Translations under genes and position numbers: made by a program
Shown: positions 34,214-64,000 of the stretch, piece after piece
Numbering within the stretch: position 1 is the first letter of the stretch
Layout: each line of letters starts with the position of its first letter
DNA from: Betaproteobacteria bacterium UKL13-2
GTDB taxonomy: Bacteria; Pseudomonadota; Gammaproteobacteria; Burkholderiales; Usitatibacteraceae
Length of the DNA: 64,000 nt
Assembly (NCBI GenBank): GCA_001602455.1
Contig: CP012157.1
Span: forward strand, 2,227,733-2,291,732
Reading direction: 5' to 3'
Notes under the pieces: model-generated
What the model was told of the DNA's origin: nothing
What the model saw: only the letters and a program-made list of their open reading frames with translations
Database searches by the model: none

Positions 34214-34290
34214 TGGTCGGAGCGACAAGATTCGAACTTGCGGCCCCTTGCACCCCATGCAAGTGCGCTACCAGGCTGCGCCACGCTCCG
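34214..34290 (-). tRNA. tRNA-Pro(GGG), copy 1
   Basis: A 77-nt cloverleaf with the 3' CCA encoded (TGG at 34214-34216 on the plus strand) and acceptor stem CGGAGCG/CGCTCCG. The anticodon loop ATGGGGT is closed by CTTGC/GCAAG, giving anticodon GGG. The T-loop TTCGAAT is normal. It differs from the copy at 49357-49433 only at 34243 (G here, A there). Both copies are followed upstream by AACGGCTAG. In related genomes one tRNA-Pro follows merR/ihfA; that is the other copy. Confidence 0.95.
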
Positions 34291-49356: not shown

Positions 49357-49433
49357 TGGTCGGAGCGACAAGATTCGAACTTGCGACCCCTTGCACCCCA
49401 TGCAAGTGCGCTACCAGGCTGCGCCACGCTCCG
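49357..49433 (-). tRNA. tRNA-Pro(GGG), copy 2
   Basis: 77 nt with encoded CCA, acceptor CGGAGCG/CGCTCCG, and anticodon loop ATGGGGT giving GGG. It differs from copy 1 at one base (A at 49386). It follows merR by 16 bases, the location seen in related genomes (pheT-ihfA-merR-tRNA-Pro), so this is probably the ancestral position. It may be co-transcribed with merR. Confidence 0.95.
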
Positions 49434-57032: not shown

Positions 57033-57128
57033 TGAATGAACAAGACCAAACCACGCCGCGCGGCTAGCGAATCAACCTTTCCAGCGTAGTCAGCGGTGTC
57101 ATAACCATTATCGTCTCGTCATCAGAAT

Positions 57129-57173
57129 TGGTAGGCGCAATTGGACTCGAACCAACGACCCCCACCATGTCAA
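57129..57173 (-). mobile_element. tRNA-Val(GAC) 3' fragment, attachment site of an integrated element
   Basis: Read on the minus strand, TTGACATGGTGGGGGTCG continues through the T-arm (GGTTCGAGTCC) to TGCGCCT-A-CCA. This is the 3' half of tRNA-Val from the anticodon loop (GAC at 57169-57171) to CCA. The 5' half is missing; the sequence turns into unrelated DNA at 57174. Such a partial copy marks one end (att) of an island integrated into tRNA-Val, with the restored gene expected at the far end. tRNA-Val next to thrS is normal in this class. Confidence 0.85.
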
Positions 57174-57361: not shown

Positions 57362-57814
57362 CTAGTTGTCAAAGCTTGCCTTAAATGCACGCTCCATCTC
57401 GTCAGTAAGCCGTGTAGCTGCCGCAGCAATGTCGGAAAAAATGGGGGCGGATGCCGGCCGTCCAGCCCGCTCCGCTGAATCAAAGTCTCCTCCCGAAACC
57501 GCCTGCCGGAATCTAAACGAGAGTCCCGCAAGATTAGTCTCACCCAGATGCAGAGTAAGTTGGTGCACTTTTCTCCCGATGTACTTCGTTTTAGTCCGTA
57601 TCGTATGTGCTAGGTCAGGGCAGCGGACATCGTCAGCAGCCGCGGCGTAATACGCGTCGGCTGCGGTCTCAACCTCTTCAATAAGTTTGACGATCGCATC
57701 AATGGAGTTCCTGACGTCTTTTCTCTCTTCTTTGCGACGGTCTTGCCAATTTCGGTAGAACCAAGCTCCAGCTGTTGCCAATCCGGCTAAAACTGTCCAA
57801 GTCAAAGGCCCCAT
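57362..57814 (-). CDS. membrane-anchored protein of the STAS/GHKL operon
   Basis: 150 aa from ATG 57814. One N-terminal transmembrane segment (PLTWTVLAGLATAGAWFY, residues 3-20) is followed by a basic stop (RNWQDRRKEERKD) and a soluble helical domain with no recognised family. It starts 5 bases after the STAS-like gene, so translation is coupled. It could be a membrane effector or anchor for the signalling pair upstream. Function unknown. Confidence 0.65.
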   Translation of the reverse strand: MGPLTWTVLAGLATAGAWFYRNWQDRRKEERKDVRNSIDAIVKLIEEVETAADAYYAAAADDVRCPDLAHTIRTKTKYIGRKVHQLTLHLGETNLAGLSFRFRQAVSGGDFDSAERAGRPASAPIFSDIAAAATRLTDEMERAFKASFDN

Positions 57815-57819
57815 AGCCC

Positions 57820-58167
57820 TTATTTTCCTGATCGACGCAGTTGGCTCATGCCTGCCGCCTCGCCAATGTACTGCCAAATCTCGTCGATTACTGAAGGATC
57901 CTCCTCCGAAACGATGCGAAGCTTTTCGCGTAAGGTGTGCTCACTTAACAGTTCCAAACGGGTAATCCCGCCAAAAGCCTCATTTAAAAATGAAGACCCA
58001 TAGCCTTCGGTACCGTCAAAGTTCACACAGACTTCGTCATTATCCACAAGCGCAGGAACAAGCAACTCTTCACGAAATCTCTGCCCGTTAAAGGGCCCAT
58101 CTTCCGGATACCTGCCCGCAGGTTCAGGGCTAAAGTCAAGTGCAACGTTAAGTTGTTTCGTTTTCAT
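57820..58167 (-). CDS. STAS-like domain protein (DUF4325)
   Basis: 115 aa from ATG 58167. The core NGQRFREELLVPAL, EVCVNFDGTEGYGSSF and LNEAFGGITR (residues 27-70) matches the STAS-like DUF4325 family. STAS proteins act as phosphorylation-switched binding partners, typically with a GHKL kinase. The gene overlaps the GHKL ATPase upstream by 20 bases and precedes the membrane protein by 5, so the three form an operon. The Ser pair in GYGSSF is a possible phosphorylation site (inference from STAS proteins generally). Confidence 0.78.
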   Translation of the reverse strand: MKTKQLNVALDFSPEPAGRYPEDGPFNGQRFREELLVPALVDNDEVCVNFDGTEGYGSSFLNEAFGGITRLELLSEHTLREKLRIVSEEDPSVIDEIWQYIGEAAGMSQLRRSGK

Positions 58168-59287
58168 CAATCAATCCTCCATCCGGCTCGGGAGACCAAT
58201 TTGTCACGCTCGATAACGGTACAGTCCATTTGATCAGAGTTCCACCGATTGAATTGCCGTAATTGACTATCGACTCATTTCCCCCACTCTGGAAAGTGTA
58301 CACGCCAGAGGCGCTGAAAACTTTCAGCTCTCCTGAGCTCACCAATTCAACAAATCTTCGAAGATCGTTTAGACCTCGCCCCCGCTCAGACTGACGAGTC
58401 TTTGTCCGCCCAATGATCATAGCGGCTTCTATCATTTGCCCATCATTTGGATTTACGCCAGGCAAGATTGATAAAGCCGACCGTATTTTTTCCCATGCAT
58501 ACAACTTGGGTAACGTTTTTGGAATTCCAACCCCGAGGTCGCAGAACAATATTTGCAACCGATCTTCCTTTAGGTTGACACTGCCTGCTAACCACCACTT
58601 TTTTCGAACACGCAAATCAAACTGAGTTTCCTTTGGATATGCGTGCTGGACGACATTTAGCATTGCCTCAGTCACGGCGCGATACAGTTTTTTCCTTGCA
58701 GCAATGCTCATTTGCATTCCCTCACCCATCAGCGCCTCACGAAGCTTCCGACTTGCATCGTTAGCTAAGGTCACGCCGGAAATGAAAGGTATGTACCGTA
58801 CGGCGTTGGTCACGCGTGTCTGAGGGGACCGAGGATTTACTCTCAACAGGGAAAAAAATCCTGTATCCACTAAAGCTCGATGAAGGCGGGGACTCTTTGG
58901 ATAAGTTCCGGTCACATGAGCAGTTCCGTATAGGATACGCGCTCGGTCAATGTATGCAAGCAAAAGCAACAACGCCGCTGGCTGGATTGACTTCGTATCG
59001 TCGAATATCAACCGAATGCGGTTTTTGCTAGAGCGTACCGAGTGCCAAAACGACTGAATAAATGCCACAGTTTCCGCATGCATATGAACGAGATTCAGCG
59101 TTTCAGGAACCACGATATCTAAGTAATCCCCTTTAAAGTTATTTCCCCGAAACCGTCGGCGACTGCCTGTGTTTGTGTAAGGCGATGCATGCTTCAGACG
59201 GTTTCGGCGTCGCAGCTTTTCCTTGGATCGAAGGCGTCGCCGAAAGCGCTTTAATTGCACATTTTCTGGGGTGTCCAAAAACGCCAT
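58148..59287 (-). CDS. STAS-GHKL ATPase fusion (histidine-kinase-like ATP-binding protein)
   Basis: 379 aa, ATG start. The N-terminus is very basic (residues 11-45). Residues about 60-150 (RIRLIFDDTKSIQPAALLLL) look like a STAS-type fold. A GHKL ATPase domain follows: N-box E208/N211/H215 (AVTEAMLNVVQHAY), G1 box DLGVGIP (250-256) and G2 box ERGRGLNDLR (301-310). There is no histidine phosphorylation site or sensor domain, as in anti-sigma-type serine kinases. Together with the DUF4325 gene downstream it suggests a partner-switching module. No sigma factor is nearby. Confidence 0.8.
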   Translation of the reverse strand: MAFLDTPENVQLKRFRRRLRSKEKLRRRNRLKHASPYTNTGSRRRFRGNNFKGDYLDIVVPETLNLVHMHAETVAFIQSFWHSVRSSKNRIRLIFDDTKSIQPAALLLLLAYIDRARILYGTAHVTGTYPKSPRLHRALVDTGFFSLLRVNPRSPQTRVTNAVRYIPFISGVTLANDASRKLREALMGEGMQMSIAARKKLYRAVTEAMLNVVQHAYPKETQFDLRVRKKWWLAGSVNLKEDRLQILFCDLGVGIPKTLPKLYAWEKIRSALSILPGVNPNDGQMIEAAMIIGRTKTRQSERGRGLNDLRRFVELVSSGELKVFSASGVYTFQSGGNESIVNYGNSIGGTLIKWTVPLSSVTNWSPEPDGGLIDENETT

Positions 59288-59377: not shown

Positions 59378-60106
59378 TCACTTTATGGCAACGCGCGCAT
59401 TGTGGTTCTGCATCCAAGCTTTGTGCATCGCTTTCAACCAACGATGCTCCGCAAACAACGTTTCTCGTTGACGAAATTGAGCTACGTCTTCCCAGCCGCG
59501 GGGCTGGTAAACCTCGAACGGTTCGGTAGCAATTGAAAGCAGGCTAGTGAGCCTACAAACGCGCGTAACCAGCCGCAGCGCAATTTTCTGCAAATGAGAT
59601 TCTGCATGAGGCATTTCTGGCGGACGCTTAGCGCCCGACAACAATTCTGCCCACCTGCATTGCCGAGCCGCATCGGCTGGCAGATCGGCGACATCACACA
59701 GTACATCGCAGGCATCAATAGCAACCCCTGAAAAATTCGCGCGCTCGTGGTCCAGCTTGTACAAGAATTTAAAGAGGTCAAAAAAGGCACGAGCCTCCCA
59801 TTCTTCAATAAAGTTTTCTTGAAAAGCGATGGCAACGAGGCGCTGAGTGTCAGAGAAATCCCCACCCGCGATGAGTGCAGCATTGCGCCCTTCTAGCTGA
59901 CCCCAAGCTCGTGTCGTGTTCTTTTCCGGCCAGCTGCCGTCCCTTCGTCCGCTCGGCCTGCGATGACTAGTTTCGATAGCCACTTGAAAGGAACGGGCGG
60001 CTTCTCGCTCTCGCTCCTTAACGAATTGCCAAAAAAACACCCCAGTTAATCGGATGCACTCATGAACGAGTCCGTGACTCTTTTTAGTAATTTTGGAACG
60101 CGGCAT
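59378..60106 (-). CDS. hypothetical island protein
   Basis: 242 aa from ATG 60106, with AGGAGACC directly upstream. Mostly helical; features include LRLVTRVCRLTSLL, EEWEARAFFDLFKFLYKLDHER and CDVLCDVADLPADAARQCRW. No family recognised. It lies between the integrase (90 bases away) and the STAS/GHKL operon, all on the minus strand. The basic N-terminus (MPRSKITKKSHG) and helical build would fit a nucleic-acid-associated or regulatory protein, but this is a guess. Confidence 0.6.
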   Translation of the reverse strand: MPRSKITKKSHGLVHECIRLTGVFFWQFVKEREREAARSFQVAIETSHRRPSGRRDGSWPEKNTTRAWGQLEGRNAALIAGGDFSDTQRLVAIAFQENFIEEWEARAFFDLFKFLYKLDHERANFSGVAIDACDVLCDVADLPADAARQCRWAELLSGAKRPPEMPHAESHLQKIALRLVTRVCRLTSLLSIATEPFEVYQPRGWEDVAQFRQRETLFAEHRWLKAMHKAWMQNHNARVAIK

Positions 60107-60196
60107 ATGGTCTCCTGCGCGTTGGTTGCTAAGCCCTACTTCTAAAGCATAGCGACCGCCCCCGGCGACCATCAAGACATCTAGGGTGTTATTTCA

Positions 60197-61324
60197 CTAT
60201 TGTCCGCGCGAGCGGCCATATTCGATCCCGTCTCCGCGCTCACGCAGATTTTCCCGGCTGTTTTCTAGCGAAAGGATTTTCGCGCGCGTGAGTTGGCGGA
60301 CCTCACGACTGCCAATTGCTGAAACGATTGATCCGCCGCGCGCCGACTGTTTAGCGCCATAAAACCGCTTGGTCTGGTCGCTGCAGTGCCCTAACGCAGT
60401 GCTAATTTCGGCGTCAGGCAAGCCAGACGCTTTCAGATCCGCAGCCACCTGATGCCGAAAAGCATACGCGCTTACCGCATCCCGCTTTTTCGGGAAAGCC
60501 GCTCGACCATACTCGCCAACGCGGCGAGAGATGCTCTTCGCGTCTCCCGTGACCACCAGTTCGCCGCGGCTGGCTTCCAATTGTGCCAACAGGTGTTTCC
60601 CGCAATTTGAACTGGTCGCGTCTACTGTTAGGGTCCGGAGGTCTTGCCCAAATTTCCCGCCGTGGGTCTTGCTACCGCGAATTTCGATAACGACTTGGCC
60701 GCTGGTCGATTTCTTGACGCGAATCCCTGACTCGAACTCGCTCGGTCGCGCACCGGATAGCGCCAACACAGCTACGGTATCTTTGTAGCGATGGCCAGCC
60801 ACCGCCAATATTTGGTCCTGCCAGTTTGCTTCTAGGCCGCGCAGCGCTTTGCGCTTCGAATTCGCCTTAACTGCCGTCTCGCCACGGGCGACGCGCCGTT
60901 CAACTTCAATAGCCCAATCACCCGGAATACCGGCATCTCGCCGTTTCAAGTCTGGGTCTGGCTTGTACTTCTCCAATTGCGCCGACGCCGCGCTTATCGC
61001 CTGAACGCACTCGCGCCAGCCAGCATCATCGTGGGACTTTGCCTTGCGATCCGCCTCGGTCAGCAAATCCGCGACCCGCTTGGCGTGCACGTAAGCCCAC
61101 GCCGCCCGATAAAAATAGAATCCGGCAGCGGTGTTTGTCGCGCTTTCGGGCGTCAGCGAGTTGGCCTCCAGCCGCGCAACCGCAGCTTGGTACTGCTGCT
61201 GCGTCTTCTCGCTTCGTGGATTCGCCATGACGCCTGCACACTGCTCGCGGGCACGACGCACGGCAGAAAACAGCGCTGTCTTGTCGCTTTGCCCCGCCGT
61301 CTCGCTCGCAATTTTGCCGGTCAT
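60197..61324 (-). CDS. tyrosine recombinase (integrase) of the tRNA-Val element
   Basis: 375 aa from ATG 61324 (the frame is open further up to 61459). The N-terminal core-binding half is followed by a catalytic domain: Arg in LSGARPSEF (R193), Lys in SKTHGGK (K219), second Arg in AYAFRH (R290), LGH (H313) and a candidate nucleophile Tyr in RFYG (Y322). The usual H of HxxR is Tyr here (Y287). It probably catalysed insertion at tRNA-Val. A C-terminal extension of about 50 charged residues follows the nucleophile. Confidence 0.85.
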   Translation of the reverse strand: MTGKIASETAGQSDKTALFSAVRRAREQCAGVMANPRSEKTQQQYQAAVARLEANSLTPESATNTAAGFYFYRAAWAYVHAKRVADLLTEADRKAKSHDDAGWRECVQAISAASAQLEKYKPDPDLKRRDAGIPGDWAIEVERRVARGETAVKANSKRKALRGLEANWQDQILAVAGHRYKDTVAVLALSGARPSEFESGIRVKKSTSGQVVIEIRGSKTHGGKFGQDLRTLTVDATSSNCGKHLLAQLEASRGELVVTGDAKSISRRVGEYGRAAFPKKRDAVSAYAFRHQVAADLKASGLPDAEISTALGHCSDQTKRFYGAKQSARGGSIVSAIGSREVRQLTRAKILSLENSRENLRERGDGIEYGRSRGQ

Positions 61325-61959
61325 GGTTTTTGTCGGATTCGCCGCTTCGTTGATCGAATGTAAGCGAGGCCATTGACTCGCCTGTCCCGCTTTGTCTCCA
61401 CCTTGCCCCCTGGCTTTGCCAGTGGACAACGTTATCGACGCCGCGCGCCAGCCTCGCAATCGCCTCGCGTGGTTTGGCTAACGCCACCCCATTTGAGCCC
61501 CCGCACGCCCCGCCCTTCGGCGGTTCGAGCAGGCGCAAAAATGGGGACACCACCACATTATGCCCGCTTTTGCAGTGTCGTCAATTGGTCGACCTTGCAC
61601 CGGGCACGAATGTTCAAAGCGGGCGCGCAGTGCGCGCAAAATCTCGCAGCTTTTCTGTCGCAACTCACCCAATGCCGTGTCTCGATGTCCACGGGCTGGG
61701 TATCGCCTGCTCCATGCGTGCTGCGCCTACGCGTCATTCACAGTTGGAATGAACGGTCGGCAACACCAGTAAAAAGCGGGCTCCTGGGGTCGAGTTTTCA
61801 ACACCACCCCGCCGTATGGCGTCCCCGACTGCCATCGAACTCTGTGCAGAGATCGATTCAAAATCCAATGCCAACGCGTCAAGCGCCGGATGCAATCCGG
61901 CGATAATGCGGACACTTGGAGCGTCGCTTTCCGCTAGGTCATTTGGGTAAAACAATAAG
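61325..61959. other. integrase / methyltransferase intergenic region
   Basis: About 630 bp between divergent genes. Open frames here lack start signals and coding bias, so I see no credible gene. It should include the two divergent promoters and possibly integrase-binding arm sites; none can be assigned by eye. Confidence 0.45.
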
Positions 61960-64000
61960 ATGAATGCCGTAGAAATCGAAGAAGCCATATCGAATCTCGC
62001 GCGTGAGCCATTCAATGCCGCCGAGTTTCCGTTCCAGTTCCTAACGGCGTTTGGCAACAAAGAAACCACGGTCAACCGCCTGCGTAAAGGCGACTCGAAC
62101 GCGTCTGACCTTCCTGGTGGGGTGCTCCAGCGCAACAACATTCATATCTCGGTTTGCGAGACCGGCCGAGTTAGCGCAACGCTGAAGTTGCTGCGGGAAA
62201 GCCCGAGGACGGCGTCCGCCAAAGCGAAATTCATTCTCGCGACAGATGGCGTGACGCTCGAAGCTGAAGAAACTTCGACTGGCGATCCGATTGCATCGGA
62301 ATTTCAGGAGTTCCCGAAACACTTTGGCTTTTTCCTGCCGCTGGCGGGTATCTCCACAGTCAAAGAAATCAAAAACAACCCGATCGATGTTCGGGCTACC
62401 GGCCGCCTGAATAAGCTCTATGTCGAGCTGTTAAAGGGCGACCCGGAATGGGCAACCGCCGCGCGGCGGCACGACATGAACCACTTCATGGCGCGCCTAA
62501 TCTTCTGTTTCTTTGCGGAGGACACCGGCATTTTTAATGGGGAAGGACTCTTCACAAAGACCATCGACCGGATGAGTGCGGCGGACTCCTCAAATACGCA
62601 TGATGTATTGAGCACACTCTTTCGCGCGATGAATACCGAGCGCAGCAAGAGGGAATCGGAAAAGATTCCGACCTGGGCAGACGGCTTCCCGTACGTGAAC
62701 GGCGGACTTTTCTCGGGCAGCACGGATGTGCCACATTTCACCAAGATGGCGCGGAATTACCTGCTCAACGCAGGCCGACTCAGTTGGCGCGAGATTAACC
62801 CTGACATCTTCGGGTCGATGATTCAGGCGGTGGCAGACGACGAAGAGCGCGGCACCCTTGGGATGCACTACACCAGCGTGCCTAATATCTTGAAGGTGTT
62901 GAATCCCCTATTCTTGGACGATCTACACAGCCAGTTAACCGCTGCCGGTGATAACGCACGCGCGCTTTTGAACCTCAGAAAGCGGATGTCGAAAATTCGA
63001 GTCTTCGATCCAGCATGCGGTTCAGGAAATTTTCTCGTCATTGCGTACAAGGAAATGCGAGCCATTGAGGCCGAGATCAATCAGCGACGCGGCGAACCGC
63101 ACGCTAGGACCGAAATAAAGCTGACGAATTTTCGGGGGATTGAATTGCGTGACTTCCCTGCCGAAATTGCGCGCCTCGCACTGATCATCGCCGAATATCA
63201 GTCTGACGTTAAGTACCGAGGGCAGAAGGAAGCTTTGGCGGAATTCCTTCCTCTTGATGCCATGAATTGGATCACCTGTGGGAATGCGCTTCAGCTCGAC
63301 TGGCTAAGCATTTGGCCATCTACGGGCACCACGGTAAAGATTGTCGCGGATGATTTTTTCACCGCGCCCATCGAGCAGGCAGAAATCGATTTTGAAAATG
63401 AAGGTGGTGAGACCTACATTTGCGGCAACCCGCCATATCTCGGATCGACATGGCAAACAGACGAACAAAAACAACACCTTCAAGCTGTTTTCGATGGCCG
63501 CACGAAAGGCTGGAAATCGCTGGACTACGTTGCAGGGTGGTTCATGAAAGCGGCGGATTACGGGACCAAAACGAATGCTGCGACGGCATTTGTTGCGACC
63601 AATTCGATTTGCCAGGGACAGCAAGTGCCAATCTTGTGGCCGCTAATTTTCGGCTCAGGACACGAAATCTTCTTCGCGCACACTTCTTTCAAATGGGCCA
63701 ATTTGGCTAGCCACAACGCTGGAGTAATCGTTGTAATCATTGGTATCTCAAATCATCCTTCCAAGGCGCGGTACCTTTACACACCCAACGATGAAGCAGA
63801 AATTGTTTCCAAAGAAGTCAACAATATCAACGCCTACCTGATTTCTGGGCCAAACATCGTCGTTGATAAGGGTAGGCTCCCTGACCTACAGTTAAGCCAG
63901 ATGATCTTTGGAAACAAGTCCGTCGATGGCGGGCACTTGCTTTTGTCTTCTGATGAAGCCGACGGCCTCCGGCTCAACCCCGATCAGCGGTCTCGAATGC
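61960..64000 (+). CDS. MmeI-type class I DNA methyltransferase, truncated by window end
   Basis: The first 680 residues of a DNA adenine methyltransferase, ATG 61960, open to the window edge. Motif I is VFDPACGSGNF (348-358) and motif IV is GNPPY (489-493). The helical domain FCFFAEDTGIF, FPYVNGGLF, NPDIFGSMIQAVADDEERG and LGMHYTSVPNILK match the MmeI/YeeA restriction-modification family. The N-terminal region, where MmeI has a PD-(D/E)xK nuclease, does not show the catalytic E-x-K; the corresponding strand reads HISVCETG. It may be a modification-only protein of a larger defence locus beyond the window. Confidence 0.88.
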   Translation, partial: MNAVEIEEAISNLAREPFNAAEFPFQFLTAFGNKETTVNRLRKGDSNASDLPGGVLQRNNIHISVCETGRVSATLKLLRESPRTASAKAKFILATDGVTLEAEETSTGDPIASEFQEFPKHFGFFLPLAGISTVKEIKNNPIDVRATGRLNKLYVELLKGDPEWATAARRHDMNHFMARLIFCFFAEDTGIFNGEGLFTKTIDRMSAADSSNTHDVLSTLFRAMNTERSKRESEKIPTWADGFPYVNGGLFSGSTDVPHFTKMARNYLLNAGRLSWREINPDIFGSMIQAVADDEERGTLGMHYTSVPNILKVLNPLFLDDLHSQLTAAGDNARALLNLRKRMSKIRVFDPACGSGNFLVIAYKEMRAIEAEINQRRGEPHARTEIKLTNFRGIELRDFPAEIARLALIIAEYQSDVKYRGQKEALAEFLPLDAMNWITCGNALQLDWLSIWPSTGTTVKIVADDFFTAPIEQAEIDFENEGGETYICGNPPYLGSTWQTDEQKQHLQAVFDGRTKGWKSLDYVAGWFMKAADYGTKTNAATAFVATNSICQGQQVPILWPLIFGSGHEIFFAHTSFKWANLASHNAGVIVVIIGISNHPSKARYLYTPNDEAEIVSKEVNNINAYLISGPNIVVDKGRLPDLQLSQMIFGNKSVDGGHLLLSSDEADGLRLNPDQRSRM

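Follow-up and report, generated by a model that had tools for sequence, protein, structure and literature searches.

What does a three-gene operon composed of a GHKL-type kinase, a STAS-like protein and a putative membrane protein do for the mobile island that carries it? This question arises from a 64,000-nucleotide stretch of the genome of Betaproteobacteria bacterium UKL13-2 (contig CP012157.1), to which we refer as the window. An earlier reading that was based on the letters of the window only (the sequence-only reading) had suggested partner switching with a membrane effector. The three open reading frames were found on the minus strand exactly where this reading had placed them:

58148-59287, minus strand: GHKL serine-kinase-like protein, 379 aa, with a HATPase_c match
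57820-58170, minus strand: STAS-like protein (DUF4325), a candidate antitoxin or phospho-switch, 116 aa, with a PF14213 match
57362-57814, minus strand: predicted membrane-anchored four-helix bundle, a candidate effector, 150 aa, from an AlphaFold2 model

The kinase and STAS genes do overlap, by about 20 bases, and the ATG of the third gene (57814) indeed lies 5 bases past the STAS stop codon. An alternative start of the STAS gene, the ATG at 58167, would give a protein of 115 aa. The trio matched no system in PADLOC-DB 2.0.0, where the sole match at E ≤ 1 was that of the third protein to LeoBC (E 0.031).

The three genes belong together. HMM searches of 177 fetched STAS-gene loci, a set that was not dereplicated and includes the loci from which the HMMs were built, found the kinase, the STAS gene and the third gene in 150 loci, the kinase directly preceding and the third gene directly following the STAS gene. 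Given this count (150/177), the arrangement is not a product of chance. The remaining loci showed either the kinase only (22) or the third gene only (5). Two of the 22 loci stop at a contig edge, and each of the other 20 contains a same-strand ORF of 109–203 aa that starts between −23 and +137 bases from the STAS stop. A hydrophobic peak of at least 1.5 is present in 16 of these 20 ORFs and absent in four. In most cases, then, the STAS gene is followed by a gene for a small membrane protein. Among the five loci without a kinase, the contig starts within 500 bases in three; the other two are L058 and L098. In one locus (L005), an ORF directly upstream of the kinase (251-1420) resembles, by eye, a type I restriction specificity subunit.

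The suggestion that the operon sits on a mobile island was also borne out. A 47-bp repeat marks the left end of an element, and its second copy (G000:C1:2300781-2300827), located outside the window, overlaps the 3′ end of tRNA-Val(gac). The two copies are 15,922 bp apart and delimit an element of about 15.9 kb with the tRNA-Val gene as its target. Within the window this element contributes the following features:

57127-57173, no strand assigned: left element end, a 47-bp exact direct repeat of the tRNA-Val(gac) 3′ end, from repeat comparison
59378-60175, minus strand: hypothetical ORF between the trio and the integrase-like gene
60197-61459, minus strand: integrase-like tyrosine recombinase, with a weak Pfam match that stays below the cut-off (24.6 versus 27.1 bits)
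61960-64000, continuing beyond the window, plus strand: MmeI-like type IIG restriction-modification gene, 924 aa

The trio had been described as lying between an integrase and a methyltransferase. This placement needs correction: the trio adjoins the left repeat copy and is bounded on its other side by the integrase-like gene, which is followed by the MmeI-like gene. The proposed linkage to restriction genes holds, as the MmeI-like gene is part of the same element. This gene starts at about 61960 and matches PF20473 (2.6e-117) and the PADLOC model REase_MTase_IIG (2e-283). Past it, outside the window, the element contains a DEAD-box helicase-like gene (7.2e-5, below the Pfam cut-off) and then a T5orf172 gene (1.9e-10). 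Together with the MmeI-like gene, these two (61960-64000; L182:5993-12040) may form one extended defence operon. The element also encodes a TrwB-type coupling protein (1.4e-69; L182:12880-14229), and a tyrosine integrase (1.9e-29) adjoins the tRNA at the far end. Flanking repeats, integrase and coupling protein define an integrative, perhaps mobilizable element that carries the trio as cargo. No relaxase was found among the seven element proteins scanned, and a coupling protein without a relaxase suggests that the element borrows transfer functions. Elsewhere in the window, two copies of tRNA-Pro(ggg) (34214-34290 and 49357-49433) are identical at 76 of 77 bases and lie about 15 kb apart; they could stem from a duplication or flag another inserted element.

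We then ask what kind of kinase leads this operon. The HATPase_c match (1e-5) scores 26.4 bits, exactly the Pfam cut-off, and is accompanied by the GHKL motifs, namely an N-box (E207..N211..H215AY), a G1 box (D250xGxGI) and a G2 box (RG303xG305). The residues E207, N211, H215, D250, G252, G303 and G305 are invariant in all 75 aligned kinases; of the N-box pair E208/N211 named in the sequence-only reading, N211 is thus correct and the conserved glutamate is E207 instead of E208. The N-box conforms to EAxxNxxxHAY, which we take to be a signature of SpoIIAB and RsbW, and the STAS partners of these kinases, SpoIIAA and RsbV, presumably resemble the STAS-like protein of the trio in bearing a serine at the start of helix 2. 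The best PDB matches of the kinase profile are SpoIIAB (0.0041) and RsbW (0.0048), while the NCBIfam models for RsbW and SpoIIAB score the kinase far under their cut-offs (RsbW: 17 bits against 145). One of 41 genes downstream of the viral loci described below matches an ECF sigma model (0.00019). The PDB matches and this ECF match would fit a stress switch of the classical anti-sigma/anti-anti-sigma type that controls a sigma factor of the host. Such a role is nevertheless most improbable. The operon contains no sigma factor, as had been noted before, and forms a three-gene mobile module whose kinase, unlike SpoIIAB and RsbW, has a predicted STAS-like N-region of its own. The distribution is patchy. 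At the level of the order, 6 of 399 genomes encode the kinase, and at the level of the phylum 7 of 398 do, the genome of the window being counted both times. The STAS protein occurs in one of 61 relatives, which is this same genome, and is absent from all 12 other genomes of the genus. Residence in core genomes beside stress-sigma genes, the finding named at the outset as one that would speak against a mobile switch, was therefore not what we saw; instead, the gene turns up on viral contigs and plasmids.

A closer relative of the kinase is found in VapKSC, an anti-phage system that consists of a STAS-GHKL kinase, a STAS antitoxin and a VapC-like PIN toxin (PMC13373217, EMBO J 2026) and protects E. 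coli by about 2 log against one phage (PMC13373217). The trio resembles VapKSC in being a three-gene operon with identical gene order. A profile alignment (hhalign) of 68 trio kinases with the kinase of a vapKSC-type locus (L188) extends over 239 columns (Prob 97.7, E 1.4e-12) and places residues 89–363 of the window kinase on residues 31–277 of the L188 kinase, so that the homology takes in the GHKL domain as well as the N-region. When the comparison is confined to the 120 N-terminal residues of the L188 kinase, the match to the kinase profile weakens to E 0.0043, and one of 150 random controls did better (6.9e-7). The idea that the N-region of the kinase is STAS-like gained ground from this VapK-type alignment and from weak profile matches to SpoIIAA (0.28–0.52), and lost some because Pfam finds no STAS domain there; a STAS-like region is predicted at about residues 60–170. 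The kinase profile did not match the STAS profile of the trio itself (E 0.2).

Two features set the trio kinases apart from those of VapKSC. First, they begin with a basic arm. The window kinase has a net charge of +13 within the first 60 aa, and among 95 trio kinases of at least 335 aa the median net charge of the first 45 residues is +13, compared with about +1 per 45 residues elsewhere in these proteins and −2 to +6 for the same N-terminal stretch in seven VapK-type or other kinases; start codons were set by rule in both sets, and single charge values may therefore be off. Second, in a tree of 46 trio kinases (45 drawn at random and that of the window) and seven others (four PIN-linked and three further kinases), the two groups fall on opposite sides of a branch with 99/96 support. 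The aromatic residue that serves ssDNA use in CapK and VapK was not located in the trio kinases.

The STAS-like protein supports the same relationship. DUF4325 (PF14213) at residues 28–92 (5.1e-15) is the only domain matched by Pfam, with no HTH or winged-helix match in the 116 aa. The VapS homologue encoded at L188 belongs to the same family (3.4e-13, above the cut-off). VapS is also the best PDB match of the trio STAS profile (9z7o, E 0.099). Against two VapS homologues, this profile gives E values of 2.4e-4 and 3.8e-4, which are better than those of 199 of 200 random proteins; the single better control (4.7e-27) may itself be another DUF4325 protein. Replacement of Ser48 in VapS by glutamate abolishes neutralization of VapC (PMC13373217), and Ser59 of the window protein aligns with this residue, given a numbering offset of 18 that is inferred from the chain lengths (134 versus 116). 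The L188 homologue has a serine at the equivalent place. In 147 dereplicated loci Ser60 is present in all and Ser59 in 132, where the residue at position 60 was demanded by the genome-contig search pattern for 75 loci and not for the other 72 (55 viral, 17 from the kinase search). The Ser59-Ser60 pair is hence a candidate phosphorylation site, in which either serine could be the acceptor.

CapK and CapS form a further related pair. CapK is described as a STAS-region GHKL kinase that acts on the STAS protein CapS through a conserved serine, much as may be the case in the trio, and CapK/CapS is described as controlling transcription (PMC13373217). Phosphorylation itself has been demonstrated for CapS, whereas for VapS it is a phospho-mimic that lets the toxin go (PMC13373217). 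The pair also differs from the trio: CapS has a C-terminal winged helix and represses transcription, whereas the trio STAS protein is DUF4325 alone; CapK has an N-terminal HTH, and the trio adds a third gene to the operon.

The product of this third gene departs most from the known systems. AlphaFold2 predicts a four-helix bundle (mean pLDDT 96.7, pTM 0.86) with a long first helix (residues 3–57) followed by helices at 65–90, 95–107 and 124–148. An N-terminal hydrophobic peak of at least 1.4 occurs in 100 of 123 family members. In all of these 100 proteins, Lys and Arg are more frequent after the peak (a mean of 5.5 among 20 residues) than ahead of it (0.4 among at most 8), the two windows being unequal in length. 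A hydrophobic N-terminus followed by K/R-rich sequence suggests a cytoplasmic bundle tethered to the membrane by one helix. Thr107 is conserved in at least 90% of the alignment rows. Pfam returned no match above cut-off, the nearest being MPTase-PolyVal (14 bits against 27.5), and no PIN match at E ≤ 1. The structural matches are generic bundles, and none of them implies pore formation. In three Bacteroidales loci (L081, L083, L090), the third protein appears by eye to have two N-terminal hydrophobic segments and not one.

How this protein relates to a PIN toxin can be judged from the gene slot that it occupies. A Pfam search located DUF4325 in 29 of 378 genomes of the phylum, at 30 loci that were picked regardless of their third gene. 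Nine of these encode the trio (the window and six previously seen loci included) and three encode kinase, DUF4325 protein and a PIN-like protein, called by eye from the DTN motif. The rest comprise four kinase loci without a recognised third gene, four single-ORF GHKL fusions and ten other settings. These counts show that the slot behind the kinase-DUF4325 pair can hold either a PIN gene or a membrane protein. At L188 the third gene encodes a PIN domain (1.1e-11). The trio is not VapKSC, given that its third gene differs and its kinases form a separate clade; by analogy, it may work like VapKSC, as a variant with a membrane-anchored four-helix bundle in place of the PIN nuclease. The statement that no named system has this architecture accordingly stands for the third gene, and fails for the kinase/STAS pair, which is known from VapKSC. 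We found no description of the trio and no phage experiment on it in the literature searched, most subscription journals lying outside its coverage. DUF4325 is mentioned there in a phage genome paper and in a gene-transfer paper. The main text of the DefensePredictor study (PMC13092281) contains neither "STAS" nor "GHKL", and a HATPase domain is mentioned in one of its figure legends; that of Rousset 2022 (PMC9122126) contains neither "STAS" nor "DUF4325".

The slot also bears on whether the membrane protein is a toxin at all. It could instead be an anchor or sensor that holds the STAS protein and the kinase at the inner membrane and senses injection or envelope damage, with the outcome that DNA entry is blocked (superinfection exclusion without cell arrest) or that a signal is passed elsewhere. 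A bundle that is probably cytoplasmic and is held by a single N-terminal membrane segment would suit this role; the top structural matches include the sensor bundles of histidine kinases and chemoreceptors, and placement in prophages, discussed next, fits exclusion too. We nevertheless consider an anchor unlikely, because a PIN-like gene fills the same slot in 3 of 30 loci and at L188, and there the third gene is a toxin (PMC13373217), and because the bundle matches are generic.

Where phages carry the trio offers a further clue. Among 50,697 phage records, the kinase turned up in two, those of Marinobacter phage AS1 and of a Helicobacter prophage. A scan with a pattern from the STAS alignment yielded many more loci: 404 of 441 genome-contig stretches were confirmed, as were 247 of 300 from viral contigs. 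The study covered the best 80 of either group, and 55 viral loci were left from the best 80 of 247 once STAS proteins at least 90% alike had been removed. An upstream gene of at least 150 aa lies within 1.5 kb in 48 of these 55 loci, on the same strand in 42 of the 48. Pfam assigned 18 of the 48 to Peptidase_S24 (CI/LexA type), 14 to HTH_3 and five to P2 gpA, and six of the 41 downstream genes to Phage_portal. An iterative HMM detected 24 CI-like genes, in 24 of 55 loci. In 18 of the 48 loci the next large gene upstream encodes a CI-type repressor and invariably shares the strand of the trio; 3.3 such cases would be expected (48 × 24/354). This HMM measurement covers viral contigs; an overly strict pattern for CI placement gave 0 of 57 genome contigs. 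In five of the 55 viral loci and none of 75 genome loci, the trio sits between gpA and portal, with portal and terminase on the opposite strand. As PMC9122126 describes, the gpA-gpQ region, where P2 has old and tin, is a defence hotspot. A comparable row in Francisella phage KIRK consists of CI, a 293-aa AS1-like protein, a DUF4325 protein and a membrane protein of 125 aa (PMC7924643).

The proximity of CI, together with the transcriptional function of CapK/CapS reported in PMC13373217, could mean that the trio is a regulatory partner switch over the phage or element itself, controlling lysogeny, induction or transfer through a repressor or other transcription factor on which the STAS protein acts. 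We give this explanation little credence: the STAS protein is a 116-aa DUF4325 domain without an HTH match, five P2-like loci place the trio between gpA and portal, and it occurs on plasmids too. On six plasmid records that encode the kinase, all six have an adjoining STAS gene and five an annotated third gene. Five of these six stretches also include a gene annotated as toxin-antitoxin or HepT-type, and the integrated element on which the window copy resides encodes a coupling protein. Such company would suit an addiction module that stabilizes plasmids, integrative elements and prophages, with any phage phenotype being secondary. This too is improbable, if slightly less so, for we infer that a kinase would be unusual in a plain addiction module, and the recurrence of the trio at two positions known for defence genes in prophages favours an anti-competitor role.

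The position behind CI recalls the Rex proteins. According to PMC12894663, lambda RexAB and P. putida RexABpp also lie downstream of a CI-like gene on the same strand and include a membrane component, and the P. putida RexAB-type system acts via membrane damage. The trio, too, would be expected to be expressed in the lysogen. Rex comprises a DNA-binding RexA and the membrane protein RexB, with neither a kinase nor a STAS protein, so that the trio shares only the genomic position with RexAB. That viral contigs carry the trio at rex-like sites and in the P2 hotspot is another difference from VapKSC.

We surmise, with the balance tipping slightly in favour, that the trio and VapKSC are sister families and that the trio acts as an abortive-infection module of toxin-antitoxin-like design under the control of its kinase. 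In the resting state, the DUF4325 STAS protein would bind and silence the membrane-anchored four-helix-bundle protein. A replicating phage or other invader would switch on the STAS-GHKL kinase, the trigger probably being nucleic acid bound via the basic N-terminal arm and the groove between the domains. The kinase would then phosphorylate the STAS protein at Ser59/Ser60, where its second helix begins, and the phosphorylated STAS protein would release the membrane protein. Once freed, this protein may oligomerise or perturb the inner membrane and thereby halt growth ahead of phage release. Temperate phages, plasmids and the element in the window would carry the trio to exclude competitors. This abortive-infection model draws on the conserved gene order, the homology to VapK and VapS, the PDB matches of the kinase to SpoIIAB and RsbW, the alignment of Ser59 and the slot shared by PIN and membrane proteins, as well as on the protection afforded by VapKSC, the CI-adjacent and gpA-portal placements and the restriction genes in the element. 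Partner switching with a membrane effector, as envisaged in the sequence-only reading, therefore has a precedent in VapKSC.

More tentatively, the trio could represent an undescribed and widespread class of abortive-infection systems of prophages, namely a phospho-switch analogue of lambda Rex whose nucleic-acid-activated STAS kinase strips a STAS antitoxin from a membrane-anchored four-helix-bundle toxin; we rate this possibility a shade below even. Temperate phages would carry it, as would further mobile elements in several bacterial phyla, and it would protect their hosts from competitors. If the abortive-infection model is true, the VapKSC kinase-STAS switch is a general chassis that takes different effectors, and temperate phages keep the membrane-effector version at the place of lambda rexAB. 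Hundreds of relatives of the STAS protein (404 genome-contig and 247 viral-contig stretches) would thereby receive a testable function, and the question of how a prophage senses a competitor and arrests it at the membrane becomes directly testable.

Two other arrangements were observed among the DUF4325 loci of the phylum. The kinase-DUF4325 pairs without a recognised third gene (L191, L206, L208, L218) possibly serve a purely regulatory use. The single-ORF DUF4325 fusions (L203, L205, L211, L213) measure 418–533 aa, also match the kinase profile and are candidate relatives of the switch.
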